This document shows positions 5,699 through 41,401 of a stretch of 64,000 nt of DNA, piece by piece. The DNA comes from Halichondria panicea (taxonomy: Eukaryota > Porifera > Demospongiae > Suberitida > Halichondriidae): assembly GCF_963675165.1 (NCBI RefSeq), contig NC_087385.1, positions 4,760,412-4,824,411 on the forward strand. The letters run 5' to 3'. The notes below the pieces were generated by a model. It searched no databases, was not told where the DNA came from, and was given only the letters and a program-made list of their open reading frames with translations. A program made the position numbers and the translations under genes. Each line of letters starts with the position of its first letter. The first letter of the stretch is position 1.

Positions 5699-5934
5699 TA
5701 GCCTCGAGACCAGCCGTTCGTTATCTGAAAGAACGCCTGGTCAAGTTCCAATGTAGCACTCGTTCTAGCTGAGTCAGCGTTTTATAGCTCATAATGATAT
5801 TCATTGGTAATACACCTTGGGCGGACCTTTGCGGGCAATTACCGGTCCAAGAAATTCCTGGACCATAGAACGAGTGCTACATTGGAACTTGACCAGGCGT
5901 TCTTTCAGATAACGAACGGCTGGTCTCGAGGCTA
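5699..5934. mobile_element. 236-bp foldback MITE, TIR TAGCCTCG, 9-bp TSD
   Basis: Arms of about 65 bp (5699-5766 and 5872-5934) are near-perfect inverted repeats starting TAGCCTCGAGACCAGCCG. They enclose a spacer of about 105 bp. The 9 bases TATATTTAT occur immediately on both sides (5690-5698 and 5935-5943), which is an exact target-site duplication. The element ends 13 bases before the ATG of the intronless gene at 5948. An in-frame upstream extension of that gene would be translated transposon, so it is not used here as the start. Confidence 0.88.
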
Positions 5935-5947
5935 TATATTTATATGC

Positions 5948-7372
5948 ATGGAAGTTTCTTGTATGTACGCCGTTGTTTGCTCCCAGTCAACTCACAAAGG
6001 CTGGACGAAAGCTCTAAAGACTCTGCTACTCAAATATGAATTAAAATGGCCGGATAGAGTCAATGAAGTCATCTATGTTGATGGAGATCTATTCTCAGCT
6101 TTACCACAACTGTCTAAGCTCAAGCCGACATACACATGCTTTCTTGCACACCATTCCGAGTGCAACAAGAAATTTGTTCAGGACATTCACAAGTTGACAC
6201 GAGGGATAGACCACACAACACCTTACACCGATACCATATGGGGTGTGCTCACCGGATGGGAAGAGGACGACTGCCTGTGTATACTACAACAGGAGCCATT
6301 GACAATCAACAGAGTGACTGGAAATTGCCCGATACCTTTGGACAAGTTTAGTTCTGGTGTTTCGTATTCAGAGATTGAGCAGACCGTGGCTTGGAGAAAG
6401 ACAGCAAATGGAGAAGTGGCACAAGAATCATGCCCTGCGGATGTGACCGAATCATTCATCCTCGAAATTGGAGCAGCACATTCGGAAGAGAAAGGAGTGG
6501 ATATGATTATCACGAGTGCACATGCAACAGAAAGTGTACTGAATTTAGGGTATTGCTTCAGCAGTGGAAAACTATCCTGTATTGATGGGCACATACACGG
6601 TCAATCCCTGGATGGTCGGCTTCACAAACTTAGTCACCAACACAACACACCTAAGGTGCTGAGTGCTGCTGGGAATTGTTTGATGGGGTATATTCGTGAC
6701 AGGGATTCAATGGCTCTAGCCTGGATGCATTCCGCTGGTGTGTCGCAGATGGTGGGATACGTGGTCCCAACCTGGTACGGCTATGGTGGATGGGGAGTGC
6801 ACAAATACTTTATCAACAACCCAGGGAAAATGACTTTTGCCGAAGCCTACTTTGCCAACCAGCAGTCTCTCCTAGCAAAACTGGAGTCTCTCAAAACGCC
6901 TAAGCCTGTCATCGAGAAACACGAAGATGTCTACAAGAAGAAATTTGGAGCTGAGAATATTGACGATACACACTCACATGATTTGTCTGGACTGAGTTAC
7001 GACGAGGACACTACGGTATTTTACGGTGACCCAGCCTGGGAAGCAAGACTCGCCCTCAAACCAGAGCTATGGGACTACTCTTCAGCCGTCACAGCATTGA
7101 AACCATCCGAGGAGGATGGTTGGGACAAATCCTGGAGCTATTGGGAGTTCACAGTGGAAACACTACGACCTGGCAGGTGGGATTGTCCTGTTGCCGATGA
7201 CAAGACCACGTCTCCTGGTAGACCACCCATCTATGTGTTCCCCTCTCGTGCTTCAAAAGCTAAACTGATTAACGGAGATGGAATAGTGACATGCAGTTTT
7301 GTTATGATGGTGTTGCAAGGATCGTTTGTTGCTGGACAATTTCATAGAGTTCAATTTGCCACTCAGAACTAA
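5948..7372 (+). CDS. Intronless bacterial-like protein, candidate clan CD-type cysteine peptidase
   Basis: One uninterrupted 474-residue reading frame in a region where neighbouring genes of similar size carry 7 to 28 exons. I chose ATG 5948 because the open frame upstream (from a TTG at 5804) is the right arm of a MITE. I do not recognise a named family. The central part looks like hypothetical proteins I associate with Planctomycetes-type bacteria (IWGVLTGWEEDD; SAAGNCLMGYI; MVGYVVPTWYGYGGWGV). A hydrophobic strand, DMIITSAH (His192), is followed 52 residues later by a second strand, VLSAAGNC (Cys244). That is the His/Cys order of clan CD peptidases such as gingipains and caspases. There is no evident signal peptide or membrane helix. 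The peptidase idea and the bacterial origin are both inferences. Confidence 0.7.
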   Translation: MEVSCMYAVVCSQSTHKGWTKALKTLLLKYELKWPDRVNEVIYVDGDLFSALPQLSKLKPTYTCFLAHHSECNKKFVQDIHKLTRGIDHTTPYTDTIWGVLTGWEEDDCLCILQQEPLTINRVTGNCPIPLDKFSSGVSYSEIEQTVAWRKTANGEVAQESCPADVTESFILEIGAAHSEEKGVDMIITSAHATESVLNLGYCFSSGKLSCIDGHIHGQSLDGRLHKLSHQHNTPKVLSAAGNCLMGYIRDRDSMALAWMHSAGVSQMVGYVVPTWYGYGGWGVHKYFINNPGKMTFAEAYFANQQSLLAKLESLKTPKPVIEKHEDVYKKKFGAENIDDTHSHDLSGLSYDEDTTVFYGDPAWEARLALKPELWDYSSAVTALKPSEEDGWDKSWSYWEFTVETLRPGRWDCPVADDKTTSPGRPPIYVFPSRASKAKLINGDGIVTCSFVMMVLQGSFVAGQFHRVQFATQN

Positions 7373-7741
7373 CTTGTTTTTTGTTTTTATATTTGTGTTG
7401 TCATGAATTCATCTGATGTTGTGTATTACATGTGCCTGTTCACATGACTATGAATATAGTTGCAGAACTATTGAAATAAGGGGAAGATTGTGGTTAGAAC
7501 TTCGAGAAAAATCGGCCTGGGAACAAGGCTAGGTTAGAACTATATAGCTGTTTCAGTGTTTTGCAGATTTTAAGGCAATGTCTTGAGCATATTAATCTAT
7601 CAAGGTTTACCATGTCAGTACATTTAAACCTACAGTATATAGAATACCAAAACACAAGATATAGTACATTCTTGCTCATAAAAATACACAAAACATGCAA
7701 CATACACATACAAAGATACGCATACACAAACACACTAAGTT
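7373..7741. other. Intergenic, between the intronless gene and PhyH
   Basis: This holds the 3' ends of two convergent genes. The only structure I see is the short TIR relic at 7501..7531. There is no supported ORF. Confidence 0.5.
7501..7531. mobile_element. 31-bp relic of the TAGCCTCG family with intact 9-bp TSD
   Basis: The right end, GGCCTGGGAACAAGGCTA, matches the inverted end of the TAGCCTCG foldback family. GGTTAGAAC occurs exactly on both sides (7492-7500 and 7532-7540). The left TIR is missing or decayed. It is probably an internally deleted copy. Confidence 0.65.
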
Positions 7742-9614
<1,873 letters not shown>

Positions 9615-9941
9615 ATGAATGCTTGTGTGATAGCTTACGTACCTCCATCCTTATCACTTGTTTATAATATTCTGCATACACTTGTGGCTTCTTTGTCGGT
9701 TGACCCTTTTCTTTGCAGTAAAGATCCTGGTAGCAGACACGAAATACAATTCTTGTCTGATTGACCCTTTTCTTTGCAGTAAAGATCGTCTCACTAATTT
9801 CTCATAAATGATAGGTAATAATGCTCATTGTAATTCTCAGAAGGTAAATACAAATTGAAGATATAGAGTCTACACAAAATAGGAACATAGCGCTACTCAG
9901 AAACAATTTATAGAGTTCAAAATTCTTTTTGGTTTATAATG
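9615..9941. other. Spacer between the PhyH start and the NUP358 stop
   Basis: A 327-bp gap between two minus-strand genes in head-to-tail order. It contains two direct copies of a 26-bp sequence beginning TTGACCCTTTTCTTTGCAGT (about 9701 and 9761). It must hold the NUP358 3'UTR and the PhyH promoter. No ORF is supported. Confidence 0.5.
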
Positions 9942-12900
9942 CTACGCTGAGTCTGATTCAGTATCTCTCTTAACACATTGTTCAAATACTTCTTTAAACT
10001 CTCTAGCTGTTTCGACATGCTTGAATCGAACAGCTAACTTCTCTTTCTTAGGCTCTTCATCAGTGAAATCTGATTGCGTAAACCATACCCACGACTTGTC
10101 AGTGTTTCCCGGCAACAGTGTCATCTCAGCAGTGATGTTATGATTGCAGCAAATCTTCAATATCTGATCTCTTCTCATCAAAATACGACAACGACCTGTT
10201 TCGGCATGCTGCAGAATCTTGATATCACCCACTCCCCTTTCCTTCCACTGGTTGATAGAGTCATCGAATCGGAACAACTTCCCACGACTTGTAAACAAAG
10301 TACCAGCCTCATCATCCCAGGACTTGGTTGGAGCCACTTTAGGGAGGGAGACCAGAGGCTTGAAATTGATGTCAATTTCTTCTTCAGGATTGGTTTCACC
10401 ATCATCCGCGCTTCGTACAGCAAACAGCTGTTTCCCAGCTCCTTGAAACTGAAAGCCAGGTGTTGCTGTCGCGAATCCAGAGGTGGTTTGTGGGGCAAGG
10501 TCTGAGAATGACACCCGATCTGTTTGTGAAAAAAATCCTTTTGGTTCCTCGACAGGTGAAGGAGGTTGTTTGGTAGGAGCAAAGGTGGCTTCCTCTGGTG
10601 GGTCTTGAGTAATGGAAGCATCACTTTCTGAGTGTGTGCTGCTGTCTTCAAGGTTACTTTCTTTTGGTTCCTCGACAGGTGAAGGAGGTTGTTTGGCAGG
10701 AGCAAAGGTAGCTTCCTCTGGTGGGTCTTGAGTAATGGAAGCATCACTTTCTGAGTGTGTGCTGCTGTCTTCAAGATCACTTTCTTTTGGTTCCTCGACA
10801 GGTGAAGGAGGTTGTTTGGCAGGAGCAAAGGTGGCTTCCTCTGGTGGGTCTTGAGTAATGGAAGCATCACTTTCTGAGTGTGTGCTGCTGTCTTCAAGGT
10901 TACTTTCTTTTGGTTCCTCGACAGGTGAAGGAGGTTGTTTGGCAGGAGCAAAGGTGGCTTCCTCTGGTGGGTCTTGAGTAATGGAAGCATCACTTTCTGA
11001 ATGTGTGCTGCTGTCTTCAAGGTTACTTTCTTTTGGTTCCTCGACCGGTGAAGGAGGTTGTTTGGCAGGAGGTTGTTTGGCAGGAGCAAAGGTGGCTTCC
11101 TCTGGTGGGTCTTGAGTAATGGAAGCATCACTTTCTGAGTGTGTGCTGCTGTCTTCAAGATCACTTTCTTTTGGTTCCTCGACAGGTGAAGGAGGTTGTT
11201 TGGCAGGAGCAAAGGTGGCTTCCTCTGGTGGGTCTTGAGTAATGGAAGCATCACTTTCTGAGTGTGTGCTGCTGTCTTCAAGATCACTTTCTTTTGGTTC
11301 CTCGACAGGTGAAGGAGGTTGTTTGGCAGGAGCAAAGGTGGCTTCCTCTGGTGGGTCTTGAGTAATGGAAGCATCACTTTCTGAGTGTGTGCTGCTGTCT
11401 TTAAGGTCACTTTCTTTTGGTTCCTCGACAGGTGAAGGAGGTTGTTTGGCAGGAGCAAAGGTGGCTTCCTCTGGTGGGTCTTGAGTAATGGAAGCATCAC
11501 TTTCTGAGTGTGTGTTGTTGTCTTCAAGGTCACTCTCATCTCTGCATCCCCTACACCCGGAGCAAGGAGTCTTCTTTTCATACAGGAAAAATGCTGGCGG
11601 CAACATCAGTTGCTTTGCCTTTGCTATAAGTTCTAAGTCAGGTAAATCTTCATACAAAAACACAATGTCATAGTCTTGATTGTTATCATCAACTTGAGAT
11701 TCGGTATTGGGCTCTTCCAATAAAATAGGCTCACTTTGAGAGTGGCTATTGTTTTTCTTTGTAGCAGTTGTTATTGGTAAAGGGTTCTCTGTTTCCAATG
11801 GGGTCGTTTCCAATGGTGGCACTGGTTTGGGGCAGACGTAGGGGACTGAACTCACAGGTGACAGAACTAGAGGAAATCTCAAAAGAGGGTTGCGATTGGT
11901 TGAGCTATCAGGCGAGCATATCTTAACAGCTTCCAATGGAGGAGTTGATAATACCTCGGCAGTCTCCTCTCGAACAGCACCACCACAGGCCACACAGTGG
12001 GTAGCAGATGGTGTGTTAGACAACAAACAAGCAGTGCACGTCCAGGCTCCAGGGGGAGGGGCTAGTTTCAATGGAGGAGTTGATAATACCTCGGCAGTCT
12101 CCTCTCGAACAGCACCACCACAAGCCACACAGTGGGTAGCAGATGGTGTGTTAGACAACAAACAACCGGTACACGTCCAGGCTCCAGGGGGAGGGGCTAG
12201 TTTCAGTCGTAAGTCTTCCCCTAGGGGTTGACTGTTATCATCAGTAATTGAGTCTCCGTCTGTTTCATCATGCTCCGACACACTGTCTTGGGATTCTTCG
12301 TTTGAGCTGGTATCAGATATAATATCTCGTTCGTTTACAATGGACCTCACTTCAGTTGGAGGATCAACAGGGGACTTTCCCTCCTCGCATTCCTCTGGTT
12401 TCTCGGTAGTCAAGTCAGGGTCAGGGGACACTTTGAGTTGTTTGCATTCATCAAACACGTTCTTGAATTCAGTTGCTGTTTCTTGATACTTGAATCGCAC
12501 AGCTAGTTTCTCGGGCCTAGCCTCCCCATCGGAGAAATCACCAGGGGTATACCACACCCACGACCTGTCACTGCCTTGGTTGGGAGTCAAGTCCATAACA
12601 GAATTGATGAAATGATTGCAACAAAGTTTTTTGATCAGATCTCTCCTCATGATAATTCTGGTTTTGTTAGTGGTTTTGTTTCTCGTGATCTTTATATCAC
12701 CAACACCCCTCTCCTTCCACTGATTCACGTTTGAGTCGAAACGATACAGTTTTGCTCGGTGAGAAAACAAAGCTTCATCGAACTCTTCCCCTGTCTTTGT
12801 CTCTACTTCTGGTAAAGTCACTAGTGGTTTGAACGTAATATTCACTTCCGCTTCAGGGTCAACTTCTCCATCTCTGTCAGCCGAGCTAGCACCAAATACA

Positions 12901-15900
12901 GGTCTACCAGCACCTGAAAAGCCTTGACTATTACCACTAGACCATTGAAAACCACCTGATGCTAACTCTGAAAAAGAATTTGCTTTGCCGTCAGAAGAGA
13001 GAAACGAGAAAGCAGCCTTAATCGTTGTTTCTTTAGGTCCATCTTCTTGCTTCACACCAGCGCCGTTTTTGACCGCTTTATCGCCTTCTTCACACAACAC
13101 AGTCTCGCTAGGATTATCCACACTGGCCTCTAAGTTAGGGGAGGGGTCTGGACTGCCGGGCTGCTCCAGAACAGGTGGGTCTTCCGTGCATCCTCTACAT
13201 CCAGGGCAAAGTGCCTTCTTCTCATAGTTGTAGAAGGTGATAGGGAGCATATATTTCTTTGCAAGTTCCACTTTCTCGGGAGGTGGGATTTCTTCTGCTA
13301 CAAAGAGGACACTATCTGTGGAATCTTCCTCTCCGTCTGACAGTGCATCAATGGGATCGCTTCTAGAAACATGATGGTCTGGTGTCACCGATCCACTATT
13401 ATCTGATTCTTGAGCTGATTCTCTATCTTCGGCTTCCTCAGTGTCTTGCTGGGGGGTGGCGGCAAACGAGAAGCTAGAAAAGGCAAATCCTGATTGAAAC
13501 ACACCAGTTGGTGCCGTAGTAGCAGTACTCAGGGGCATGTTGAACAAACCAGTTGGGGCCGTAGTAGCAGTACTCAGGGGCATGTTGAACAAACCAGTTG
13601 GTGCCGTAGTAGCAGTACTCAGAAGGGGCGTGTTGAACAAACCAGTTGGGGCCGTAGTAGCAGTACTCAGGGGCATGTTGAACAAACCAGTTGGGGCCGT
13701 AGTAGCAGTACTCAGGGGCATGTTGAACAAACCAGTTGGTGCCGTAGTAGCAGTACTCAAAAGGGGTGTGTTGAACAAACCAGTTGGAGCCGTAGTAACA
13801 GTACTCAGGGGCATGTTGAACAAACCAGTTGGGGCCGTAGTAGCAGTACTCAGGGGCATGTTGAACAAACCAGTTGGGGCCGTAGTAGCAGTACTCAGAA
13901 GGGGCGTGTTGAACAAACCAGTTGGGGCCGTAGTAGCAGTACTCAGAAGGGGCATTTTGAACCCACCAGTTGGTGCCGTAGTAGCAGCAGGAGTGGTGCC
14001 AAATGAAAGTCCAGTAGACAATTTAAATCCTCCATTTTCACCAAATAAGGAGGTAGCGGTAGCGGTAGTTCCTCCTTTACCAAATGATGTCGTAGCAGCA
14101 GAAGAGTTTGGATTCTTGGTCGAGCATGCCACACATTCATTTGCTGATTCTTTATTAGTGACTAGACACACATTACATGACCAGCTACCTTTGGGGGGAG
14201 CTAGGCGTCCACGAATATCAGTGCTAAACGTTCCTCCTTTACCAAATGATGTCGTAACAGCAGAAGAGTTTGGATTCTTGGTCGAGCATGCCACACATTC
14301 ATTTGCTGATTCTTTATTAGTGATTAGACATACATCACATGACCAGTTGCCTTTGGGGGGAGCGAGGCGTTCACGAATATTAGAGCTCGTCTGGGCTAAT
14401 TGTTCAGTGTTATGTTCTAGTTCCTGCATCACATTACTGCTCTCATTACTGGCATCAGTTTTGAAACTAGCTCTGTCATTAGATGGTAGTTTAAATCCAA
14501 CAAATGGAGTAGCATCTTTTCCAGAGGGCAATAATTTGTTAGTACTCATCGGTTTAAAGGATTCACAAGCTACACACTTCAACGAGTCCTTTTGGTTAAC
14601 TAATAAACAAGTGTCACATGACCAGACGTCTTTTGAAGGGGTGAAGTTTGACAGTCCAGAATCAGGAGGTTTTGGTTTTGTTGATATACTGCTGAGAGGG
14701 AAGCCGACTGTGGGCCCACTGGACAGAGCAGTAACATTGGTTGTGGTGGTACTTGACAGTTTGAACCCACCAGTTGGGAATCCACCACTTGGGGCCGTGG
14801 TTGGAAAAGTCAGTTTGAACCCACCAGTTGGGGCCGTAGTAGCAGTACTCAGAAGGGGAAGTTTGAACCCACCAGTTGGTGCCGTAGTAGCAGCAGGAGT
14901 GGTGCCAAATGAAAGACCAGTAGACAACTTAAATCCTCCACTTTCACTAAACAATAATGAGGTAGCAGTAGAGGTAGTTCCTCCTTCACCGAATGATGTT
15001 GAGGTTGCACTTACAGCAGCAGAGTTTGGATTCTTGGTCGAGCATGCCACACATTCATTTGCTGATTCTTTATTAGTGATTAGACATACATCACATGACC
15101 AGCTGCCTTTGGGGGGAGCGAGGCGTCCACGAATATCAGAGCTCGTCTGGCCCAGTTGTTTAGTGTCACGTTCCAGTTCCTGCGTTGAATTATTGCTCTC
15201 ATTACTGGTATCGGTTTTGCTGAGTTCTTCAACGGCAAATTCAACAGTCTGTTTGAACTTTGTAGCGATCTCATCAGTTTTGAACTTGATGGCTAGTTTT
15301 TCAGATTTGATCTCCTCATCGGAAAATTCGGCATTGGTAAACCAACACAACATACGTTTACTGTCTTGCAAATATTTGAATTTCATGGCAGGCACAACAT
15401 AGTGATTACAACAAATTTTCAGAATCTGATCTCTTCTCATTAACAATCGAATTTTTCCCGTGCTTCGGTGCTTGAGTACTTTCATCTCGCCGAGGCCCTT
15501 GTCCTTCCATTCACTGTTGTGGAATCGAAACAGCTTTGCTCTCTCAACGAACAGTGCCTCTTCGTTCTCTTCACCACTCTGTATATTATCAAGTTCGGGC
15601 AGGGAGACAATCGAATAGTCAACATTATTACTCGTGTCATGTGCATCACTGTTATCTTCTTGATCTTGTTCCGCATCGTTAGACTTGCTTGAGAATATCG
15701 AGGCACCGATGGTGCTGAAAATAGAGTCACTGTGTGTTTTTGGTGTTTCTTTCGGGATAAGTCCTCCACCAATGGCGGCTGTAGAAGGTTGACTGCCTGT
15801 AACATTTTTGGATAAAAGAGAGGACAAAATCGGGGCTTTTGAGGTTGCTATGGTTTCTGTCTGCACACTCGTTACAACAGGTGACTGAGTCGGTGAAAAA

Positions 15901-18900
15901 TTCGCAAAACTCAATAGAGAGCTGTTTCCCAGAATTGAAAATGGCTGACTTGTTTTAGCCAATGTTGCCGACGGAGATGAGGTAGTGGGATTCATAGAGA
16001 AGCTGGGCACAGTGAAAGTAGGCTCAGAGGAGGTACATGCAGGAATAATTGATGGCGGAGGCTGATTGTTCATCGGAAAACTGTACGGTTTAGGGAAAAT
16101 AGAAGACGGTTCCTTAGTTGTGGTGACAGGTTTATCAGTACCATCAACTGTTGTCGTGCCAAATACAGGCAATTGAGAGGCCGAGGACGTGGTTTGACCA
16201 AACGTGACAGGTTTATCAACTGTTTTCGTGCCAAATACAGGCAATTGAGAGGCCGAGGACGTGGTTTGACCAAACGTGACAGGTTTATCAACTGTTTTCG
16301 TGCCAAATACAGGCAATTGAGAGGCCGAGGACGTGGTTTGACCAAACGTAAACGACACTGGTGCTGTAAATGAAAACGATTGTGACCCTAAAACACCAAA
16401 ACCTGACGCTGTTCGTTTCATTCCCGATTTATGCCCACTAGTAGTGACATCATCATTTTTTGGAGACGTTGCTGACACAGTAAATGGGAGAGCAGGATTT
16501 TTGACAGGTAGCGGCTGTTGAGATGGCAACAGATTACCCAAACCTGTGGCCTGTACACTGGGCAAGGGGTGGGCCAGTACAGGTGGCTGAAACTTGGGCG
16601 TTAAAAACAATCTGTTTTGTACTAATTTTGGTGTAGTCGACACAACTTGCTCGTTAGTGGTTGGCATGGTATCGGCATTACTTGCAGCTCCAAGGGATAC
16701 AGGCTTGGTACTTGGACTAATTAATTGCGGTCCACCGATAGCGGGTACAAAGGAGTGAGACAGAAGGTGCTGAGGCAGAGTTAGTGGGGGTATGTTGATC
16801 GGACTTCGGGGGGCAAAGGGACGTGGCGTCTCAACAGATTGTGGGGATCTGTTGATCGGACTTCGGGGGGCAAAGGGACGTGGTGGAGTAGTGAACGTCT
16901 CAACAGATTGTGGGGATCTGTTGATCGGACTTCGGGGGGCAAAGGGACGTGGTGGAGTAGTGAACGTCGTCTCAACAGATTGTGGGGATCTGTTGATCGG
17001 ACTTCGGGGGGCAAAGAAACGTGGTGGAGTAGTGAGCGCCTCAACAGATTGTGGGGGTCTGTTGATCGGACTTTGGGGGGCAAATAGACGTGGTGGAGTA
17101 GTGAGCGTCTGTATTCCAGTGGCAACCCCTTGGAAGCTGTTGTTAGGTTGAGGGACAGCTAGTGGTGGAGGTGATTGCTGCTGTGAGAACATTGCCATTC
17201 GGTTAGGTTGCAGCTGAAACATGTTTAGAGGAGAGGTCTGACGAGGAGAGATCTGCTCGTGAAAGAGAGGCTGCTGTCCTGGCAACCACTGCTGACCCAG
17301 CCCTTGAGGAGATAGCTGCCCTCGGAAATGAGGATCATAATTTGGAGCAGGTGACATTAGTCGAGGCCCATACGATAAGTTGGTTTGACCGTGTGACTGC
17401 ATGCCTGGATACATCGTAAAGCCTTGGGGAGACATTTGCGATTGATTGTTTGTGTGAGTCGTTCGAGATTTTATCAGATCCATTTCAGCCTATGAGGGAA
17501 AGAGAAACACAATTATAAGCTAAGTGTCTAGATAGAATTACAGCTGGCATGAGTTGCTAGGTTACTGGTACAAGCTCACAAACACTACAAAACAATGGCC
17601 TACATCTATATATAGTACTGTACATGAAGCACAGGCTATGGCAGAATAAAATTACCTGTAGTTTCTCAAGCTGAGAGGCCATTTCTGATAATTTTTGTTC
17701 GTGTTTGCGACTCTGATCAGTGAAGGGGGAGGTTATTTGACTGAGAGGCGGGGTCTTTGTGTTGGCCGGGGTGGACGAGAAACGACGAGGGAGACTCGGG
17801 CTCTCCTCTTCATAGTCGAGAGCACACGCCACTATAGTGAGTGGGGGAGGAGAGAGGTACGCAGTCACAATAGTAACCAATGCAAATAGACAGCTGCATG
17901 CATCGCTTGTGGTACGAAATGAAAATACACAGAGTACTTACAAGGAGACTTCTTTGTTTCTCCAAGGAGATCCTGTATATTGTCTCTTTTTAACAAGAAC
18001 TTCTGTCGTAAATTCTGAAAGAATAATATAATAGCTATAAGTTCTCTTGTCTTGATGTTTACAATACCAATATAGCACGTAACTGTTTTATACGGCTATA
18101 TCTAACTAGACACAACATTACAATAATGGTACCTTAATTTCGTGCTCTGGAGTCAACCGAGTAATAGCCAGGTCCAGAGCATCAGCTGCCTTCTGAAGAT
18201 TGTCGAGTCGTGAGTCCACCTTCTCCCGAGTGTCTGCTTGACCGGACATGACAGCAAGATGAAGGTATACCTGTTCAAGAAGAGAGAGATGACATAAATC
18301 ATTTAATACGTTTATGGAAACAGCCGGAAAATGTATCCTATAAGCTAAGAAATGCACTCAAATTAATCGAGAATTCACTTGCAAGACTAGAGCACTGAAG
18401 TGCAAACCCTCGGCTGGTGATATGATTATAAAGAAACCAGAAGAGTGATATAATGCAGTGCATGTAGTGATGTATGACTGAGCTGTCTAGCACAGCAACT
18501 CAGGAGCAATAAAACTAAACCAGACTAGAGACATGCTGAAACATTGAGAACAGAGTTTTAGTGGTACATGAGGTGAACTAGGTCCTAGTCTAGGATCACA
18601 GCAAAGAAGCCTGGAGTCTCAGAGAAGTATGACTCTTGGATGGAGTAGGATCCCAGAGTCAGCTAAGAGCAACAAACAAGTCCCAATTCTAGCTTTCTAT
18701 TGTAGTGACCCTTTTCCACTGTTTTTGGTACGGGATTACTTCAGCTGTAAATACGGAGGGTGCCTCGAATAAAGGCCGCGTGTATAGTGTTAGCTAGCTA
18801 GCTGCCAACGTGCAAGTTCAAGCTTCTTAGTTTATGCTCGCTTTTATTCGACAACAAAGCTCTAACATCGAAATCTACTATTGTTAAAACTAATAACTTA

Positions 18901-29183: not shown

Positions 29184-29302
29184 CTCTGTTCATATAATTA
29201 TAGCTCCTTTATGTACCTGTCCCTGTCACACCAGTTCTTGTAATTCTTATAACATCGTGAATTATTAATACAAAACATGATACACTCTAGAGTTGGTTGG
29301 TT

Positions 29303-30263
29303 CTAAAATAAGTCCTTGAGGGTGTACTTGATCACTTCCTTATTCCACTCATTCTTTATGAAGATAATAGACCAGACAGTCAGTAGGGCATACAAAGGCA
29401 CTGCCAGGAGACAAAAAGCCTGCGTGTATATGGATGCATGTGTGTATGTGTGTGGGGTGAGGAGGGTGATGGGCAAACCAGAAGGGACCACTATTAATAA
29501 TTATAAAGTTGTTGTAATACTAGAAGTACTTACAGAGCCTGTGGCCAGTCCATTCCTAACGAGAGACTCTGATCCGAGACTAGCAAAATAGGCTGCCGTC
29601 ACTCCACCGGCAAGATGCGCAAGAGTTAGCACAAGACTGATGAACACATCCTACAAAATGGAACACATCCTACAAAATGGAACACATCCTACAAAATGGA
29701 ACACATCCTACAAAATGGAACACATCCTACAAAATGGAACACAACAATTATAACATGTACTGGATCGCAACGGTACCGTATAGCAACTAAAGTAAACTCA
29801 CAACAGTCAGAAAAATTGTTGACTTGATATTGATGAGTCCGATGTTGAGAAAACGAACCACAATCATGAGCAACTCCAAGAACACTCCAAATGCTGCACA
29901 GCAGATAATATAGCCGGCAACACCCAGGGACCCAGCCTCAGTGGCAGCTGATACCAGACTGATGTCATCATTGCCCAGTCCAACCAGCGCTATAGCAGCT
30001 CCTACTAAGGCTGGCACAGATCCCACCTTTACAGTATTATAGTTTGTAGATGATAAGATTGTGTAGGGTTACCTAGCTATACTGTCGGTGTAAATTCAAG
30101 CGATAGACAACGTCTACTGAGTTTGTACACACGTGAAAAGGACACATATACTTACCACAGGGGCTAGTACCCTCAGTGCTATCTCCACTCCACCCTGCCA
30201 GAAGCTACAGATTGCTCTCCCAGGCTTGGGGCCCAACACTTGTCCAGCTAGAACTGCAGTCAT
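29303..30263 (-). CDS. Four-helix membrane protein, unknown (MARVEL-like topology)
   Basis: Exons 30156..30263, 29802..30026, 29534..29650 and 29303..29419 give 567 bp in phase, 188 residues. Four hydrophobic segments are visible. They are around ALRVLAPVVGSVPALVGAAI, then GYIICCAAFGVFLELLMIV, then TIFLTVVDVFISLVLTLAHL, then AFCLLAVPLYALLTVWSII. The basic C-terminus FIKNEWNKEVIKYTLKDLF would be cytosolic if both ends are inside. The length and four-helix layout recall MARVEL/synaptophysin-type proteins, but I do not recognise the family. The start at ATG 30261-30263 is supported only by phase. The acceptor of exon 3 lies in a 19-bp tandem repeat. Confidence 0.7.
29643..29737. repeat. Five 19-bp tandem units spanning a splice acceptor
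   Basis: The unit AACACATCCTACAAAATGG is repeated five times without change. On the minus strand each unit contains TTTTGTAG followed by GATGTGTT, which is the acceptor plus the first exon bases of the membrane-protein exon 29534..29650. Five equivalent acceptors therefore lie in tandem. Confidence 0.97.
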
Positions 30264-30546
30264 CACTGATCAGATAGAGTCTTGAATACAAAATAGAGCA
30301 ACTATAGATGTGCTTCGCATATATAGCAAATGTACGTACAGATGGTTGCTACAACGTTCATAAGAAAAGAGCATGTTAACAACTAGAACCTTTTCATAAT
30401 CATGAATGGACTACATTGTCATGTGACAAAGCTGTTGAACGTTCACTGCTACAAGACAAACGAAATTAAAAAGTTGCCATACAAATCACCATGGAAATTA
30501 TCATTACAATAAATAAGTATCGACAAGCAATTAGGAAAAACAAATT

Positions 30547-32870: not shown

Positions 32871-33097
32871 TATTCTCCCTCAAATTCAAACCGCGGTCTT
32901 TAATAGAGATGGGTGGAGCTGCTCCACAAGTGTAGAATAGCTCCACCCATCTATCAAGACACTGACCACATAATTATGATTAATAAAAAATGATGATTAA
33001 AAATATACTGTATAAAACAGAGATGTTGCATGAGCCCTCCTCAGTTCTGCTATATTAGAAAAAAAAATCACCATTAGCTAGCTAGCTGTCTAAATCA
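32871..33097. promoter_or_regulatory. Divergent TPK1 / scramblase A upstream region
   Basis: There are 227 bp between the TPK1 ATG (minus) and the scramblase ATG (plus). It contains an imperfect hairpin, GATGGGTGGAGCT with AGCTCCACCCATC (about 32906-32952). Part of this region, with TPK1 exon 1, recurs in decayed form before scramblase C at 41402-42060. That supports a shared ancestral upstream unit. Confidence 0.5.
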
Positions 33098-36000
33098 ATG
33101 GCAGATCAAGGCGACATCCCTCTTGGTAAGGATATAATTTTGTTTTGTATTCTCATCATTGCATTTATATCATACACATACAGGGGAGACTTCTTCTTCA
33201 CATAATCAGGTTGGACCTACCCAACCCTCTCCTAGCAACCCTGAGCAACCTCCCCCTGTAGGACAGCCAGCTACCCAACCTCTACCACCATTACCATACC
33301 CTGCCGGGCAACCCGGACAGCCTGCTAGCCAACCTCCACCACAATTACCATACCCTGCCGGGCAACCTGGACAGCCAGCTGCTGCTCCCTACCCTGGTCA
33401 ACCGGCCCATCTGGATGCTGGTCATCCCCCACAACAAGCAGGTGTTTACCCACCACCACCACCAGGTAATTATAGACCATATTCGTTTGTGTCGATTAGA
33501 ATTCCGGTAGTACCAATAATGATACTCAACTGTGTGTACTCCCCAGGTCCCCAGCCACCCCCTGGAGCAGGGTATGGAGCTGGGTTTGCTGGAGCGTTTG
33601 CAGGAGCACTGGGCGCTGCACAGCAGCCACAGCAGGTGAACAAGTACAGTCAGTCAGTCATTTATAGCTAGTTTCAGATGCTTATGGTATATACCATTTT
33701 GTGTGCCTGATACTGTCTGTAATTTCATGGGATTGTACCCCGTACAGGTGCAATGGATGGCTGCCCCCACTGATGCCCCCAGTGACTGCCCCCCAGGACT
33801 AGAATATCTCATTCACATCGACCAAATCCTCGTCAACCAGCAGATTGAAATATTTGAGAGTAAGCTTCTTCTGTGTGTTGTACATATACGTATGTTACAT
33901 TGCAAAGACACTTGCTAATAATTTGCACAGCACGTAATTATGTGGATGCTGTAGGCTGAGTAAAGAATTTTAGTAGCTTTGCGAGAAAGGTATTCTTGAA
34001 GAGTTACGTAATGTGTGTAGCTTGTACAGGATCTAGGAAGGCCTTCCTGAAGAGTTTACGTAATGTACAGGAAGGCCTTCCTGAAGAGTTTAACTAATGT
34101 ACAGGAAGGGTCTTCTACTAATTGAACCTTTGCAAAGTCAAAGAAAGTGTTTGTCAATTAAACTGTTTATGCCTCGAGGCGTAGCCGCACGAGGGATACG
34201 GTAAAGCTGACTGTGTGTGTGTCTGCGTGTCTGTGTGTCTGTGTGTGTTCCAACTGTAACTGCTCAACGGTTGTAATGCGACGAAAACTAACAGCTTCTA
34301 TAGGCTTCTAGCCACGTTCTCTTGGATTTTGATTCGTGGATTAGCAAACTAAATCTTCTTTCTCGAGTTATGGCTAGTTTGACTCACATTGAAGGCTGTT
34401 GCAGTCTCTTCAGAATCTTTCGTAGCATTATCTGTTCTCACAAAGTTTCTATTCAACTTATAAGTTAGTCTTGTACTAAAGCGCTAGCTTTTTGTTAGCT
34501 ACAAGAGTTAGAAAAGAGCTGTAAAACTAGCTATATGTAGCAGCCATTGACCTTGCAGACACACCCCTTATTTCTGTGTACGTAATGCGCATGCACGCTA
34601 TCCCCTACGTGTGAGAGAATAAAATCCAGAGCAGATCCTCCTGACAGCTATCATCTTTTCTTGAGCCAGAGGGCCTGGTAAGCTACCATATACATATACA
34701 ACAGCTAGATATAACAATATGAATGTACACAAGTCTTTTCTTTTCATCTTATCTTCTCAGTTATAATAGATATAGATTCTGGAAGAATCAATTTCTTCTT
34801 TCTTGAGACCACAAAACACTACAATGATACCATACAATAGCAATATATAAACAAGTCTTTTCTTTTCAGTAGGTTTATATAGAAAATTCATCATATAAAC
34901 TACTAAAACACTCTAATTCTTTTAAGCGAAAGCATAACATGGCGAGAGGCATTAGCAAGCGCACGCTTGCAACACTCGTCAATTAAACTTTTAATTAATT
35001 GATTCATTTCCCTAGCTCCATATGTTGGGGTTAAATTCATAAGCTTACATTTCCCTCTATTAGTTATCACCAACTTTGAGACGGAGAACAAATATCGTAT
35101 CCGTAACACTCTAGGACAGCAGGTCTACTTTGCTGCAGAAGGTGAGTGCTTTGACGGTGTACTGTAGCGTGCATCAACAGAACCCTGTCTATTGTTTAGT
35201 TTTAAAGCTATCTCAAACACGGTATCTTCTGTTTTAAGGAATGATTGCAATTCTATATAGAGTCAAGTGTGTTCCAGCGGCAGTGCTGTGGACCTGGTCG
35301 TGCATTTCAAATGAGCATCACTGACAACAACAACAAGGAAGTGAGTTGGGTCAATGAAACATTGACGCGGAACTTGAGTTAGGCTAGCATATTGACAAGG
35401 TGACAGGTGACATTACTCCTTTGTATTGTACACATGGTTTCACATCCATTATCCTAATAGTTATTCACTGTGCACACTTTATACCACCTCAGGTGATGCG
35501 CTTGGACCGTCCTCGTCGTTGTCTGCCATGCTACTTTTGCTGCAGCTGTTGTTCTCCTAATGTGATAGAGGTGCAGGCCCCTCCAGGCAATGTGGTCGGC
35601 TACGTCAAGCAAGACGGCCTGGGAATAATCCGACCTTGGTTCTTTATTCAGAATGCTGACGGGGAAACCATTCTCAAGATCAAGGGACCTGTGCTCGGTT
35701 GTGCTTGCTATGCTGATGCCAACTTTGAGGTAGGTTTGTCGTGTGGTCTCTTAATTATCTCCTGCACATCGTGTGTGGTTGGCCCTTAGCACATTTCCTT
35801 TAATTAAAAAATACGGTAATGAAACACATTTTAACATGAATCTGCTTCCTGTTTGATGTGTAGGTGCTGTCAGCTGATGGCCAGACCAATGTGGGGCGCA
35901 TCAGTAAGCAGTGGGGAGGACTGGCCAAGGAGTACTTCACTGATGCCGACAACTTTGGAATACAGTGTGAGTTATTTCTGTCAGGGATGTATAGTTGTGA

Positions 36001-36433
36001 GATAATTAATGCATTCCTCAACTACTAAGCAGGGCTGCATTGAGGGGGGGACGAGGGGGGTAATTCGCCCCCCCTGGGATCTAGCCGATTCATTTGTACT
36101 GCTATAATTCTGATGACTTCGCCCCTCCTACATTTTAATTTGCCCATTTCGCCCCCCCTGATCCAAAATCCTAGATGCAGCCCTGCTAAGTGTAGTCACA
36201 TAAGTATATTATGTGTATCCTCTACTGCTAAAGTATTCATGTACGTCTGTTGCAGTTCCCATGGACCTTGATGTCAAGATGAAGGCTGTGATGTTGGGAG
36301 CAGTGTTTCTCATTGTAAGTATACCCTAAAGGATCTGTAATTAATTCACTCTGTCCCATTTCTCCAGGACTTCATGTTTTTCGAGAGTGCTGGTGGAGGG
36401 AACCAAAATGGTGGACGTCGCGCCCACTATTAA
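33098..36433 (+). CDS. PLSCR: Phospholipid scramblase A, complete
   Basis: Ca2+-linked bidirectional mover of membrane phospholipids. Exons are 33098..33125, 33184..33465, 33547..33635, 33748..33859, 35064..35141, 35261..35340, 35493..35729, 35864..35966, 36256..36314 and 36368..36433. They sum to 1134 bp in phase, 377 residues. The N-terminal ~130 residues are Pro/Gln-rich repeats ([11 protein letters not shown]), as in PLSCR1, which bind SH3/WW partners. The core starts at [20 protein letters not shown] and has the Cys cluster CYFCCSCC (the palmitoylation region). Then come [14 protein letters not shown] and the EF-like Ca site plus helix, [20 protein letters not shown]. The single C-terminal membrane helix LGAVFLIDFMFF follows. 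Intron 8 holds a MITE, and intron 4 (33860..35063) is long and repeat-bearing. Confidence 0.95.
36029..36186. mobile_element. 158-bp PIF/Harbinger-like MITE, TAA target
   Basis: It lies in scramblase A intron 8. Ends are GCAGGGCTGCAT and its inverted complement ATGCAGCCCTGC. It is flanked by TAA on both sides (36026-36028 and 36187-36189). The interior is rich in G/C runs. A relative with TTA target is at 58165..58452. A 3-bp TWA duplication is the hallmark of PIF/Harbinger elements. Confidence 0.8.
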
Positions 36434-36990
36434 TGAGATAAGAGAACAACAAAATATACTTTTGAAGCCAGTATATATACATGGGCCTACTGAACAGACT
36501 TTCTTTTTAAAGCTTTTATTCTGTTTATACTATAATACTTTTGTATAGTTGTCTACATTTAAACGCAGGTAATTTTATTGACTAATTGCATGCAAACAAC
36601 CATCACTCCGAGCGAAGGAGGCAACAGTCAAATAGGTCTCGATCTCCTTGAATTAAGGTGGGCTTTTTTATAGGGTTTGGATACCGCAGTTGTCCAAACA
36701 AAACCACACCATGCTGATATCTACAGCTGTACATACACAGGCAGCAAAAAAATATTTCTTGAGGATTATATAACATCAAAATTATATTGCACAACTCAAT
36801 AAGAACACTTCATCCACAAGAAACGTGTCAATAAGGTTATGTCTAATACAGTAGAACCTCCGAATAACAGACAAGTTGGTACAGGGGGTTTTGTCCGCTA
36901 TTCAGAGGTTTCCTTTATTGGGAGGTTATACCATATAAGGTTACGTTACCCCAAATGTGTTTAATGATGACTTCAAATACACAAATATGA
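36434..36990. repeat. Scramblase A 3' flank, duplicated at 39895-40462
   Basis: About 557 bp following the scramblase A stop are nearly identical to the sequence after the copy B stop. The flank of copy C has diverged. This ties the 3' end of copy B to gene A. Confidence 0.9.
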
Positions 36991-37014
36991 TGAACTGAAA
37001 CAGTAGAAGTCTAC

Positions 37015-37215
37015 CTCTGTAGTTGGTAGTTCGCAGTTGGCAGTTGGCAGTTGGTAGTTGGCAGTTGGGAGTTGGCAGTTGGCAGTTGGTAGTTCGCAGT
37101 TGGCAGTTGGCAGTTGGCAGTTGGCAGTTGGCAGTTGGTAGTTCACAGTTGGCAGTTGGTAGTTCGCAGTTGGCAGTTTGCAGTTGGTAGTTCGCAGTTG
37201 GGAGTTGGTAGTTCG
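37015..37215. repeat. 7-bp-based minisatellite (TTGGCAG)
   Basis: Direct repeats of TTGGCAG, TTGGTAG and TTCGCAG variants fill about 200 bp between scramblase A and copy B. There is no coding content. Confidence 0.95.
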
Positions 37216-37499
37216 TGACCTTTAAACTTTGCAGTTAGCGTATATAGATCTTTGCACTGCCTCTAATCTTTTAACCTAAATAGCCTCTAAAAGTGCCATG
37301 CAAAACCTGTTTCTATAATTCCCCCCTCCCTGCTGGGATCTGGGAATATAGGTACATGAGGATTAGACTTGAAATGATCTCCCTACCTAGATGTGTACAT
37401 ATAAGATTAATATTACCGTCTTAGACTTAGGCCAGCTAGATATCGGTGCCAGTATCATAATTTAAAAGCAGGCTAATTATTGTTGCAAAGTTTAAAGGT

Positions 37500-39894
37500 T
37501 ATCAACAGAACCTTGCCTATTGTTTAGTTGTAGAGCTCAAACACGGTTTCTTCTGTTTAAGTAATTTAATCTCTGCTAGAGTCAAGTTTGCTCCAGCGGC
37601 AATGCTGTGGACCTGGTCGTGCATTTCAAATGAGCATCACTGACAACAACAACAAGGAAGTGAGTTGGGTCAATGAAACATTAGCTATAACTGTGCAATC
37701 ATAGTAGTAGTGCGTACCTCATTGTTTGATTGTAAGGCTAGCATATTGACAAACTGACAGCATGGTGACAGGCGATATTGCTCCTTTGTATTGTACACAT
37801 GATTGGCTTACAATACATCCATTATCCTAATAGTGATTCACTGTGTACACTTTACCACCTCAGGTGATTCGCTTGGACCGTCCTCTTCGTTGCTACTACA
37901 ACTGCAGTGGTCTGACATGCTACTGTTGCTGCAGCTGTTGTGCCCCTCATGTGATTGAGGTGCAGGCCCCTCCAGGCAATGTTGTTGGCTACGTCAAGCA
38001 GGACGCCTTGGGAATACTCCGACCTTGGTTCTCTATTCAGAATGCTGATGGGGAGACCATGCTCAAGATCAAGGGACCTGTGCTCGGTTGTGCTTGCTAT
38101 GCTGATGCCAACTTTGAGGTAGGGTTGTCGGGTCGTCTCAAATTTCTTAATTGACTCCTACACATCATGTGTGGTTGGCACTTCCTTTTAAATAATTAGA
38201 TTGAACCCGTAGCACATTTTCTTTTATCTAGGGAATAGTAGCAACAAAAGGTAATCACACTTTACTGAATCTGCTCGTGTGTGATGTATAGGTGCTGTCA
38301 GCTGATGGCCAGACCAATGTGGGGCGCATCTGTAAGCAGTGGGGAGGACTGGCCAGGGAGTACTTCACTGATGCCGACAACTTTGGGATACAGTGTGAGT
38401 TGTAGTTTTATGAGGCAATTGCAAGTGTAGTCATATGATTGTGATACGTATTACGTGTATCTTAAGTATTCATGCAGAGGGGGCGGAGCTGATATGCTCA
38501 TGTTTGGGGTGCGCTCGCCCCCTTGGCTCCCCCTGGGATTAGCCCATACAAACTGTGTTACGGTCTGGGGACATACCAATGAATTATTCTACAATGTAAA
38601 TCACAGAATGAACTTCTACTCTTTCTGTTCCATATGCCCACAATTTCCTCTAATTTATCTGTAAGTAAAGGGGGCGATTCCAGAGCAATTTTCATTTAAG
38701 TAGGTGTTGTTTCAGGCCACCGTGTTTTGATGAGCTTCGTCTGGGAAAAGCTTTGCTCTACGGATGTGCAGTAGCCACAGCTATTTTATCCATCTAAACT
38801 GACTCATAGTACCACTTAGCCTCCTTCACCGGCCTTTGAAAGAAGGCCTGCTATCGACTGCTTGCGCATGCGCCAAATTATTGGATTTTTTTCCCGTAAA
38901 TATTCCTATAATACTGGATACATCAGAGAAAATATTCTAAAAGTCATACACAGAGCTATATAGCTAGCTAGCTAGAAACAGAGCTGTGTAGGTTTGTTGT
39001 ACTGCTATTTTCTTCTGATAGAATCAGTAGCAGTAGTTATAGTAGACTTTCACCAAAGTTAGTATTAAATGGGCGTGGCCTGTCCATATAGGCTCTTATC
39101 ATGTCAGCCGTCATTCCTTTCAGACGATTGTCATCCACACTGTTGCAGGCTGTGAGTCTTTTGTTAACATATCAGGCTAAGGGTAGCTATCAGAGAATGC
39201 TATCCGATGGGCTAGAAACCTTCAATCGAACTTTCTATCTACTTCCTTCAATCCACTTCCTTTTGTTGTGATGTCATAGTTTTACTGAGCATAAACGATG
39301 TTATCCAAAGCCCCCAGATACCGGGGGGATATTAGCGCATGCGCAAGCAGTCGATACCAGGCCCACTTCCCTAGCGGGAAGTGCGGCCTGGGATCGAGGC
39401 TAAGTACCACTAAGTTGTTTGAGCACATGCAGGCACTAGATTGTCACTGCTGCATCAAAAACTTTCATTCCACAATACAGTTTGTACTTCATAAAATCCT
39501 AACTTTAACACTGGCACCCTCAGTTCCTGAGAATACACCAGATGCAATATCACAGTCTAAAAACAAACATTTCTGGGGGGCATACCTCAAGATTCCCCTA
39601 GATGGCCGTGTGCCTAAGCGCACGGATATCCAGCTTGCCCCCCTGGAAATTTTCTGTATGAAGGCCTGTATAATACTATACATGTAATATTATTATTCTG
39701 TTGCAGTTCCCATGGACCTTGATGTCAAGATGAAGGCTGTGATGTTGGGAGCAGTGTTTCTCATTGTAAGTATACCTTATATTAAGCTAAAGGATCTGTA
39801 ATTAATTCACTCTGTCCCATTTCTCCAGGACTTCATGTTTTTCGAGAGTGCTGGTGGAGGGAACCAAAATGGTGGACGTCGCGCCCACTATTAA
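37500..39894 (+). pseudogene. PLSCR: Scramblase copy B: 3' half only, exons 6-10
   Basis: Five exons equivalent to exons 6-10 of the neighbouring genes are present with intact frames and splice sites: 37580..37659, 37864..38118, 38292..38394, 39707..39765 and 39829..39894. Exons 1-5 are absent, and similarity begins abruptly near 37500 in what is intron 5 of the complete genes. Exon 7 matches gene C ([17 protein letters not shown]), while exon 10 matches gene A ([16 protein letters not shown]). Since nothing is broken, it could be used as an alternative 3' end spliced from exon 5 of gene A. If not, it is a truncated pseudogene. Intron 8 carries a 586-bp transposon. Confidence 0.85.
38817..39402. 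mobile_element. 586-bp TAGCCTC-family transposon with 9-bp TSD and known empty site
   Basis: The left end begins TAGCCTC. A subterminal inverted part GGCCTGCTATCGACTGCTTG is mirrored near the right end, which closes with GAGGCTA. AGTACCACT is duplicated exactly (38808-38816 and 39403-39411). The paralogous intron of scramblase C has one AGTACCACT at the same place and no insert (about 44646-44654). No transposase ORF is visible. Confidence 0.92.
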
Positions 39895-40462
39895 TGAGAT
39901 AAGAGAACAACAAAATATACTTTTGAAGCCAGTATATATACATGGGCCTACTGAACAGACTTTCTTTTTAAAGCTTTTATTCTGTTTATACTATAATACT
40001 TCTGTATAGTTGTCTACATTTAAACGCAGGTAATTTTATTGACTAATTGCATGCAAACAACCATCACTCTGAGCGAAGGAGGCAACAGTCAAATAGGTCT
40101 CGATCTCCTTGAATTAAGGTGGGCTTTTTTATAGGGTTTGGATACCGCAGTTGTCCAAACAAAACCACACCATGCTGATATCTACAGCTGTACATACACA
40201 GGCAGCAAAAAAATATTTCTTGAGGATTATATAACATCAAAATTATATTGCACAACTCAATAAGAACACTTCATCCACAAGAAACGTGTCAATAAGGTTA
40301 TGTCTAATACAGTAGAACCTCCGAATAACAGACAAGTTGGTACAGGGGGTTTTGTCCGCTATTCAGAGGTTTCCTTTATTGGGAGGTTATACCATATAAG
40401 GTTACGTTACCCCAAATGTATTTAATGATGACTTCAAATACACAAATATGATGAACTGAAAC
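39895..40462. repeat. Copy B 3' flank, duplicate of 36434-36990
   Basis: It matches the 3' flank of scramblase A with only scattered substitutions. This extends the A-like part of the mosaic beyond the stop codon. Confidence 0.9.
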
Positions 40463-40510
40463 AGTATATACATGTAGCCATGGTCTTTGGGAACAGATTA
40501 CTTAAACTAC

Positions 40511-40700
40511 TTGTACAGTTCCGATGATTCTTTTCAAGGTGCTGGTTTTCTTAATCGGGTGTCTATAATCTCTCGGAAGTGTACCACTCTGGACTATACC
40601 AAATTTAAAGCATCATCTGAGTATAGTCCAGAGTGGTACACTTCCGAGAGATTAGACACCCGATTAAGAAAACCAGCACCTTGAAAATGGAACTGTACAA
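40511..40700. repeat. 190-bp palindrome (about 95-bp arms)
   Basis: The arms begin TTGTACAGTTCC and end GGAACTGTACAA. They run almost perfectly through GTGTACCACTCTGGACTATA to a loop of about 10 bp. A third partial copy follows at about 40725-40785. It is probably a foldback element. I could not identify a target duplication. Confidence 0.85.
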
Positions 40701-41108
40701 ATTGATAAAAGTACGTGTACCCGATGTCGGAAGTGTACATGTTGTGCACTTTGGACTATACTCAGATGATGCTTTAAATTTAGGGGTAGATAAGTCATGA
40801 GCTTTCACTAGGGTTGTAAGACCACTGCTGATCAGTGCTAGTCCACTGAGCTGTTTTGTAATTGGGAAAGACTTGGTAACAAAGTAAAAGTGTTAGTATT
40901 TTTGTAGAAATGTGTTCTCTGCTGACTTTGGGGTGATCGACTGTTTATCACCAGATCAGATTGAACAGCACAGAGTAGTGGTCTGAAATAGAAAAAGAAT
41001 TGCATGTTGTGTCAAGGTACATCAGAGATAGATGAGGAACATTTGTTAATATTTATAGGTCAAGAATGTTTCCATGAACATGAGTTATAAGTTGAGTAAG
41101 GTTCTTGT

Positions 41109-41153
41109 TAGCCTCGATTCCAGGCCGCATTAATCGGCCTGGAATCGAGGCTA
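41109..41153. mobile_element. 45-bp foldback element, TAGCCTCG family, 9-bp TSD
   Basis: This is one hairpin. TAGCCTCGATTCCAGGCCG meets its complement CGGCCTGGAATCGAGGCTA with a 7-base loop. GGTTCTTGT is duplicated exactly on both sides (41100-41108 and 41154-41162). It is the minimal member of the family. Confidence 0.9.
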
Positions 41154-41310
41154 GGTTCTTGTCAAAGACAAAGTTGCACAAGTCCTGGGAAAACTGTGAT
41201 GAGCCAGTCAAAGATAGCCAGTTTAATATATCTAGTCACCTACAATCATAAGATTCTCATTTGTAGGTCCAGTTACACATAGCTATACCAAAAACATGTT
41301 TACCTGCTGC

Positions 41311-41369
41311 TAGTTGGGCGGAGTCCAACCACTTGCAGTGGCGAAGCGTGGTTGGACTCCGCCCAACTA
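41311..41369. mobile_element. 59-bp foldback element, different TIR, 9-bp TSD
   Basis: TAGTTGGGCGGAGTCCAACC meets its inverted complement, ending GGGCGGA/CCGCCCAACTA style, around a loop of about 19 bases. ACCTGCTGC is duplicated exactly (41302-41310 and 41370-41378). The same 9 bases occur once next to the functional TPK1 exon 1 at 32801-32809, giving a paralogous empty site. It shares the TA-start and the 9-bp duplication with the TAGCCTCG family, but not the rest of the TIR. Confidence 0.82.
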
Positions 41370-41401
41370 ACCTGCTGCATGCCATCAGAGATTATAATAT
41401 C

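Follow-up and report, generated by a model that had tools for sequence, protein, structure and literature searches.

The stretch of DNA analysed here (hereafter the window) spans 64,000 nucleotides of the sponge Halichondria panicea (contig NC_087385.1, positions 4,760,412 to 4,824,411) and carries a series of short insertions, most with terminal inverted repeats (TIRs), which are bounded by direct repeats of 9 bp and include bare hairpins. The initial annotation had described five such insertions; all five repeats proved exact upon re-reading, and a sixth insertion, at 53383-53570, had been overlooked. None of the elements is assigned a strand. A 236-bp element at 5699-5934 (5690..5943 with flanks) has perfect TIRs beginning TAGCCTCGAGACCAGCCG, is flanked on both sides by TATATTTAT, and folds upon itself at the left end (stem 5708-5742), the same sequence being found inverted at the right end. 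Its relatives occur in L032 (88% over 238 bp), L025, and L023, where L-numbers are the labels of DNA pieces read outside the window. Shortly after the end of this element comes an in-frame ATG (5948), which opens an uninterrupted open reading frame (ORF) without a Pfam match that extends to 7372; the mechanical ORF call at 5699-7372 begins within the element.

A 586-bp miniature inverted-repeat transposable element (MITE) at 38817-39402 (38808..39411 with flanks) shows the duplication AGTACCACT. Its left end begins TAGCCTCC and its right end TAGCCTCG; the right end is a strong hairpin (folding z-score -5.75) and the left a weaker one (-1.3). A bare hairpin of 45 bp with a 19-bp stem lies at 41109-41153 (41100..41162 with flanks; duplication GGTTCTTGT); its 23-bp core is found at four exact places, including its own, and at one more with a single mismatch, on five contigs. 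The overlooked element, of 188 bp (53374..53579 with flanks), has the ends TAGCCTCC/TAGCCTAG and the duplication AGCTAGGAT, and combines a short TIR, TAGCCT, with a long internal inverted repeat (internal self-inverted match of 66 bp). The motif TAGCCTC, which had been attributed to four of the five insertions, is present at both ends in three of them (5699-5934, 38817-39402, and 41109-41153). The fourth, a 31-bp remnant at 7501-7531 (7492..7540 with flanks) between copies of GGTTAGAAC, starts TTCGAGAAAA, folds weakly (z -1.1), and has the TIR at its right end only (TAGCCTTGTTCCCAGGCC read inwards). The fifth, a hairpin of 59 bp at 41311-41369 (41302..41378 with flanks; duplication ACCTGCTGC), had been set apart; its ends are TAGTTGGG, and it belongs to a second TIR family, TAGTTGGGCGGAGTCCAACC. 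A decayed member had been proposed at 47549-47607; a good hairpin does occur there (47549..47603, z -9.0) with its GAGGATA end at about 47603, and no duplication is visible, the flanks matching by eye at 3/9 positions. The window has eight pairs in which a 9-bp direct repeat abuts an exact 6-bp inverted repeat, at a spacing of 15-700 bp; in 40 order-1 simulated windows such pairs averaged 0.125, and no window had more than 1. Five of the eight are elements described here and three are one tandem repeat (16848-16979).

The genome that holds the window (G000) comprises 131.5 Mb in 39 contigs, and the end TAGCCTCG occurs in it 6951 + 7062 = 14,013 times, against 443 + 506 = 949 for the reversed word. 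Short elements 28-58 bp long whose 8-bp inverted ends match perfectly, sought as TAGCCTCG-N12..42-CGAGGCTA, were found at 920 places against 0 in the control. Likewise, 39 further near-full copies of the 586-bp MITE, with 91-98% identity, were recovered among the 40 candidates scored of 861 first-look ones. Hairpins of 36 bp with the centre CCAGGCCGGCCTGG occur at four places (control 0), too few for a test. The search for related DNA gave 0 matches in viral contigs and one in bacterial metagenome-assembled genomes (MAGs), namely 27 bases of the TIR pattern at L125 4567-4593. This is a Bacteroidetes MAG contig (JAHZIZ010000070.1), and the match lies 18 bases from the contig end; it is most likely a chimeric join or host-derived DNA, which hints at a related host as the origin of the MAG.

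The flanking duplications were examined at tiny sites, which were harvested with a regular expression over all DNA read. This gave 92 hairpins and, after joining any two sites within 2 mismatches on both flanks, 61 sites of 19-65 bp, of which 26 came from the search for a 58-bp hairpin described below and 35 from elsewhere; the merging wrongly dropped some sites (L073 and L082 at the least), and the harvest covers only hairpins whose ends are unmutated. The 9-bp duplication is exact in 34/61 sites (15 from the 58-mer search and 19 elsewhere), and has one mismatch in 10, two in 2, and three or more in 15. When the left flank was shifted, one mismatch or fewer was seen in 0/236 cases, and pairing the flanks of different sites gave 1/3660 exact matches. 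Of 43 duplications (19 of the 58-mer set and 24 others), 22 begin with G and 34 end in C or T. A second scan left the TIR unspecified and covered 264 kb (the window and twenty 10-kb pieces, picked for holding hairpins, in which some sites repeat), and looked for 8-bp inverted ends of any sequence that match exactly and are flanked by an n-bp duplication. With n running from 6 to 12, the TAGCC pairs numbered 0, 0, 4, 14, 0, 0, and 0, and all pairs 556, 14, 21, 18, 0, 1, and 0. Some of the 14 pairs at n = 9 are copies or composites of one site, and the four at n = 8 agree in number with the 28-mer copies that show an 8-bp repeat.

The second TIR, TAGTTGGGCGGAGTCCAACC (20 bases), is found 149 + 141 = 290 times genome-wide (control 0), and the first 100 matches listed include tiny pairs forming elements of 46-65 bp as well as pairs several hundred bases apart, often about 730. 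A 53-bp hairpin of this family stands at two sites with different flanks, with an exact duplication in L110 and one mismatch in L111, and the two loops differ at 2/13 bases. The 46-mer at L105, L107, and L108 shares one common flank; at L106 the duplication is mismatched at 3 bases, and at L113 no good match is seen.

The longer relatives that were read measure 188-586 bp, and their ends are mostly self-folding. A 47-bp core, CCAGGCCGTATTTTAATCGGCCTGG, is present at 134 + 125 places genome-wide (control 0). Ten listed places without a close partner were sampled, leaving out the whole 47-bp hairpins L057 and L058; in 10/10 the core has no TIR on its inner side and leads into a common sequence (TGCAATAG in 9/10), a pattern that fits the end of a longer element, which would then itself be a hairpin. 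The core also occurs, among the first 100 matches listed and by position only, in outward-facing pairs about 0.5 to 2.26 kb apart. The folding z-scores are -4.0 for the left end of the 236-bp element, -5.8 and -1.3 for the right and left ends of the 586-bp one, and -3.4 for the 47-mer type of long end, so that folding is strong in three of the four long ends (z -3.4 to -5.8) and weak in one. Foldback/Phantom (Tm1-like) elements are marked by long or composite self-folding inverted ends; no Phantom transposase was identified. The tiny forms fold into near-perfect stems (z -9.0 to -9.9 for three) and look like the two ends that would remain after internal deletion. For example, a 42-bp element (L032, 1964) looks as if about 20 bases from the left end of the 586-bp type had been joined to 22 from its right end, and has its own exact duplication, GCGTTGTCA.

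One of the tiny forms is a near-palindrome of 58 bp, whose 36-bp core, CCAGGCCGATTAAAATACGTATTTTAATCGGCCTGG, occurs at 34 places on 16 contigs (control 0), the contigs being 5.7-18 Mb long. All 34 sites were read, and the 9-bp duplication is exact in 19, has one mismatch in 6, two in 1, and three or more in 8, one of which (L074) has an 11-bp repeat instead. The flanks are unrelated, the exceptions being L089/L090 and L067/L083 (31-bp offset match). Moreover, the same unequal arms, AATCC/AGACC, are common to 21/34 copies, which is not expected of copies formed afresh by deletion at each site; the occurrence of ATTCC in 5/10 sampled long ends qualifies this argument. Because of the exact duplications, the unrelated flanks, and the shared unequal arms, the 58-mer has probably moved and multiplied as a 58-bp unit, reaching about 33 sites, and such a unit appears shorter than is usual for mobile DNA of this sort. 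The earlier proposal that minimal hairpins are mobile thus holds in part; many tiny copies are nested and some look like deletions in place, so not every bare hairpin is mobile.

Adjacent elements that share the same 9-mer, in the order duplication-element-duplication-element-duplication, were seen at two unrelated sites, one at L006 231-332 and the other in a repeat present in L023 (9121-9407), L032 (4183-4448), and L025. At the former, the 36-bp hairpin is also present in the copies of the host Mutator-like element (MULE) in L001 and L003, and the adjoining 57-bp hairpin is found in L006 alone of the three. Judging from this arrangement, the second element seems to have inserted precisely at the duplication of the first, suggesting that new copies may be able to target the exact duplication of a resident copy.

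These elements are interpreted, with fair though far from complete confidence, as a family of non-autonomous DNA transposons that inserts with a 9-bp stagger, is most likely moved by a MULE transposase, and includes at least one 58-bp member multiplied as a unit. What was observed directly comprises the end sequences, the 9-bp duplications, and the numbers of copies, as well as the differences between flanks and the asymmetry that 58-mer copies have in common. The structure of a foldback-like MITE family is well supported, and the enzyme is most likely of the MULE type. In the proposed course of events, a DDE transposase acting in trans, most likely of the MULE superfamily, would bind the end of about 18 bp (TAGCCTCGANNCCAGGCC, or TAGTTGGGCGGAGTCCAACC in the second family) and insert the element through a 9-bp staggered cut by cut-and-paste. 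In the long members, an inverted copy of the inner end sequence just inside the end would fold that end into a hairpin. Internal deletion would then yield elements of two ends set back to back (about 28-65 bp), and the 58-bp near-palindrome would still be a substrate, multiplied as such to about 33 sites.

Several points weigh against this interpretation. Nine of the 34 58-mer sites have no recognisable 9-bp duplication, and none of the six longer elements checked (188-586 bp) holds a stop-free stretch over 63 codons. The full-length copy with the same TIR and a transposase that the initial annotation had suggested looking for was not found, nor was any TAGCC-ended transposase carrier, the ends having been read for MULE family A only, which has another TIR. 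Many hairpins also ride inside larger repeats: 28 of the 50 listed places (of 920) belong to three kinds, namely 17 50-mers, five 41/43-mers, and six 28-mers, and the flanks are nearly identical within each kind where read (11/17, 5/5, and 6/6, respectively), most of the six 28-mers read having an 8-bp repeat. These three kinds are, by their flanks, copies of old nested insertions, and further listed places are pairs or trios with common flanks, e.g. L041/L042, L028/L047, and L048-L050. Hence, the figure of 920 overstates the number of insertions, and the independent evidence amounts to 11/50 listed places, out of 920, together with the other sites read. Finally, ten sampled tiny members of the TAGTTGGGC family have six lengths, a spread that deletion in place predicts.

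According to this alternative, the tiny hairpins are immobile; MITEs insert, and the interior of the palindrome is later deleted in place through slippage or cruciform cutting, with the 9-bp duplication retained. In addition to the six lengths, the many sizes and loops among the tiny sites speak for it, as does the 42-mer, which resembles a deletion derivative of the 586-bp type. A further case is a 19-bp insertion, TAGCCTCGATCCCAGGCTA, with the duplication GTTCCAATG, located in L023 inside a copy of the 236-bp family; the empty site is present as uninterrupted sequence in the window, L032, and L025 copies. By eye, this 19-mer is a hairpin shortened between two AGGC words, so that deletion in place is its simplest reading. 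Such 19-mers number 26 genome-wide against 0 in the control, and several of them, judged by how far they lie from other hairpins, are copies of one insertion. However, the 36-bp centre of the 58-mer is the same in all 34 copies, its junction shows by eye about 1 bp of microhomology, and 21/34 have the same unequal arms, all of which would require the same rare event to have happened many times from like parents. As an account of the tiny hairpins at large, deletion in place is considered rather unlikely.

A further alternative is that the short elements move as folded DNA, i.e. as a cruciform or single-strand hairpin cut at the base of the stem, such that the spacing of the ends is irrelevant. 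The near-perfect stems of the tiny forms and the three of four long ends with z of -3.4 or lower are compatible with it, and a duplex under 60 bp is below the minimum loop of 64-70 bp described for bacterial cut-and-paste transposons in vivo (PMC3464196). Nevertheless, any two inverted ends with little spacer make a palindrome, so the shape needs no selection, and the commonest 58-mer has fixed stem mismatches (AATCC vs AGACC). Excision without a loop has, moreover, been proposed for the 26-28 bp internal eliminated sequences (IESs) of Paramecium (PMC3464196), and movement in the folded form seems improbable. The broader proposition, that a nuclear transposon of 58 bp or less transposes as two fused ends, either folded or loop-free and without a bendable spacer, is advanced tentatively as less likely than not; on this view, even the insertions of only 19 bp that have 9-bp duplications could stem from the same reaction.

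With respect to the enzyme, the length at the tiny sites (34/61 exact at 9 bp, 10 with one mismatch) falls within the 8-11 bp given for MULE target duplications (PMC6446971), and the MULE assignment was made because of the 9-bp duplication. The earlier statement that the duplication fits MULEs therefore stands as to length, and no MULE transposase with these ends was found where ends were read (family A). The MULE domain PF10551 has 31 matches in the genome, of which 20 were fetched, among them L004/L008, L010, L017, L018/L019, and L020. MULE family A (L001, L002, L003, L005, and L006; about 3.7 kb) has a 9-bp duplication in 2/3 copies with ends read, and is ruled out as the source of the TAGCC elements by its other TIR, CGCTGTGACTATTCTTACGG. 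The MULEs of L007 and L009 show by eye no TAGCC end, TIR, or common duplication at the limits of homology. The L011 family (L011-L016 and L101-L104), whose copies are 98-99.9% identical over the compared parts, carries the MULE domain in an open frame of 809 codons (seen in two copies) and is a candidate source of the transposase, its ends lying beyond the 5.2 kb read. A pattern taken from an end next to the truncated L011-type copy in L015 has 11 matches, and the other L011-type copies have none of these near them. After the ORF, the L011 family has a minisatellite of 9-bp units (CCAGACTCT), and its C-terminus appears PHD-like by eye. These features recall Rehavkus, which is described as MULE-related, with a 9-bp duplication, a PHD finger, and a minisatellite before the 3' TIR, and as restricted to insects and annelids (PMC6446971); the TAGCC elements have the 9-bp duplication in common with it. 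The likeness of the L011 family was seen in the ORF and minisatellite, a link to TAGCC ends being hypothetical, and Pfam reports no PHD finger in this family.

A Merlin-type (IS1595-like) transposase in place of a MULE has in its favour 24 matches to PF12762 in the genome and the duplications of 8-9 bp ascribed to Merlin (PMC8101967). The same source gives Merlin a conserved terminal 5'-GG-3', whereas the ends here start TAG, and the TAGCC pairs number 14 at 9 bp vs 4 at 8 bp, with the 28-mer copies accounting in number for the latter; a Merlin enzyme is thus judged quite improbable. Chance palindromes or an assembly artefact, for which nothing speaks except the shortness of the sequences, are refuted by the absence of matches in the genome controls (the 920-place, 58-mer, 47-mer, CCAGGCCGGCCTGG, TAGTTGGGCGGAGTCCAACC, and 19-mer searches) and by the 0/236 shifted flanks, and can be practically dismissed.

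Ordinary MITEs, commonly about 50-800 bp in size, resemble these elements in being short, with TIRs, a target duplication of fixed length, no transposase coding, and a high copy number; the difference is that the lengths here fall to two bare ends. Among the systems covered by the sources available, the nearest published relatives are Tm1 and, by length only, the Paramecium IESs, which are not known to be multiplied as a tiny unit. Tm1 is described as a Mutator/Foldback (Phantom-like) family of root-knot nematodes, with 9-bp duplications, foldback-type ends, MITE-like as well as longer members, and a single putative autonomous copy, present in just one of two species (PMC3169594). Its ends are composite, however, with tandem 13-15-bp repeats, its MITE-like class averages 431 bp, the two species have 39 and 22 copies vs the thousands of ends here, and the accessible account makes no mention of bare hairpins (PMC3169594). 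The IESs likewise are transposon-derived DNA from 26 bp upwards on which a transposase-type enzyme still acts, but they are reported to be TA-bounded and excised by a domesticated PiggyBac (PMC3464196). Tiny repeated hairpins of up to 40 and 84 bp are also reported from two sponge species; these are mitochondrial, and the portion of the source available mentions no target duplication (PMC2800124), whereas the present ones lie on contigs of 5.7-18 Mb with 9-bp duplications. The family is named nowhere in the literature searched, a search made without Repbase and most subscription journals, so the claim to novelty is weak.

Other features were noted in and around the material read. A 50-bp TAGCC hairpin stands at one position in a larger repeat in L024, L027, L029, L031, L033, and L035-L040, with the flanks TTCGCGCTC / CTCGCGCTC or close variants. 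On C1 of G000, near 2579578, 2611020, and 2643248 (L048-L050), the same hairpin and flanks return every 32 kb or so, and pairs of the 47-mer core about 7 kb beyond them recur likewise, which is probably a tandem segmental duplication. Within the window, an inverted repeat at 40536-40682, whose arms at 40536 and 40653 each measure 30 bp or more, differs in kind from the hairpins. The minus strand at 9942-17483 contains a 2513-codon open frame that is RanBP2/Nup358-like: it has three RanBP1 domains, an IR1-M match, and six stretches of RanBP zinc fingers, and long coding repeats occur within it.

If the 58-bp element does multiply, it would set a very low limit on the spacing of transposon ends, as compared with the 64-70 bp loop of the bacterial systems (PMC3464196). 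Elements with the same ends form a natural length series in this genome, read from 19 to 586 bp and extended by position to paired ends about 2.3 kb apart, with which the dependence of transposition on length and the use of the hairpin could be measured. Repeat annotation that skips very short elements would overlook many insertions in this genome.

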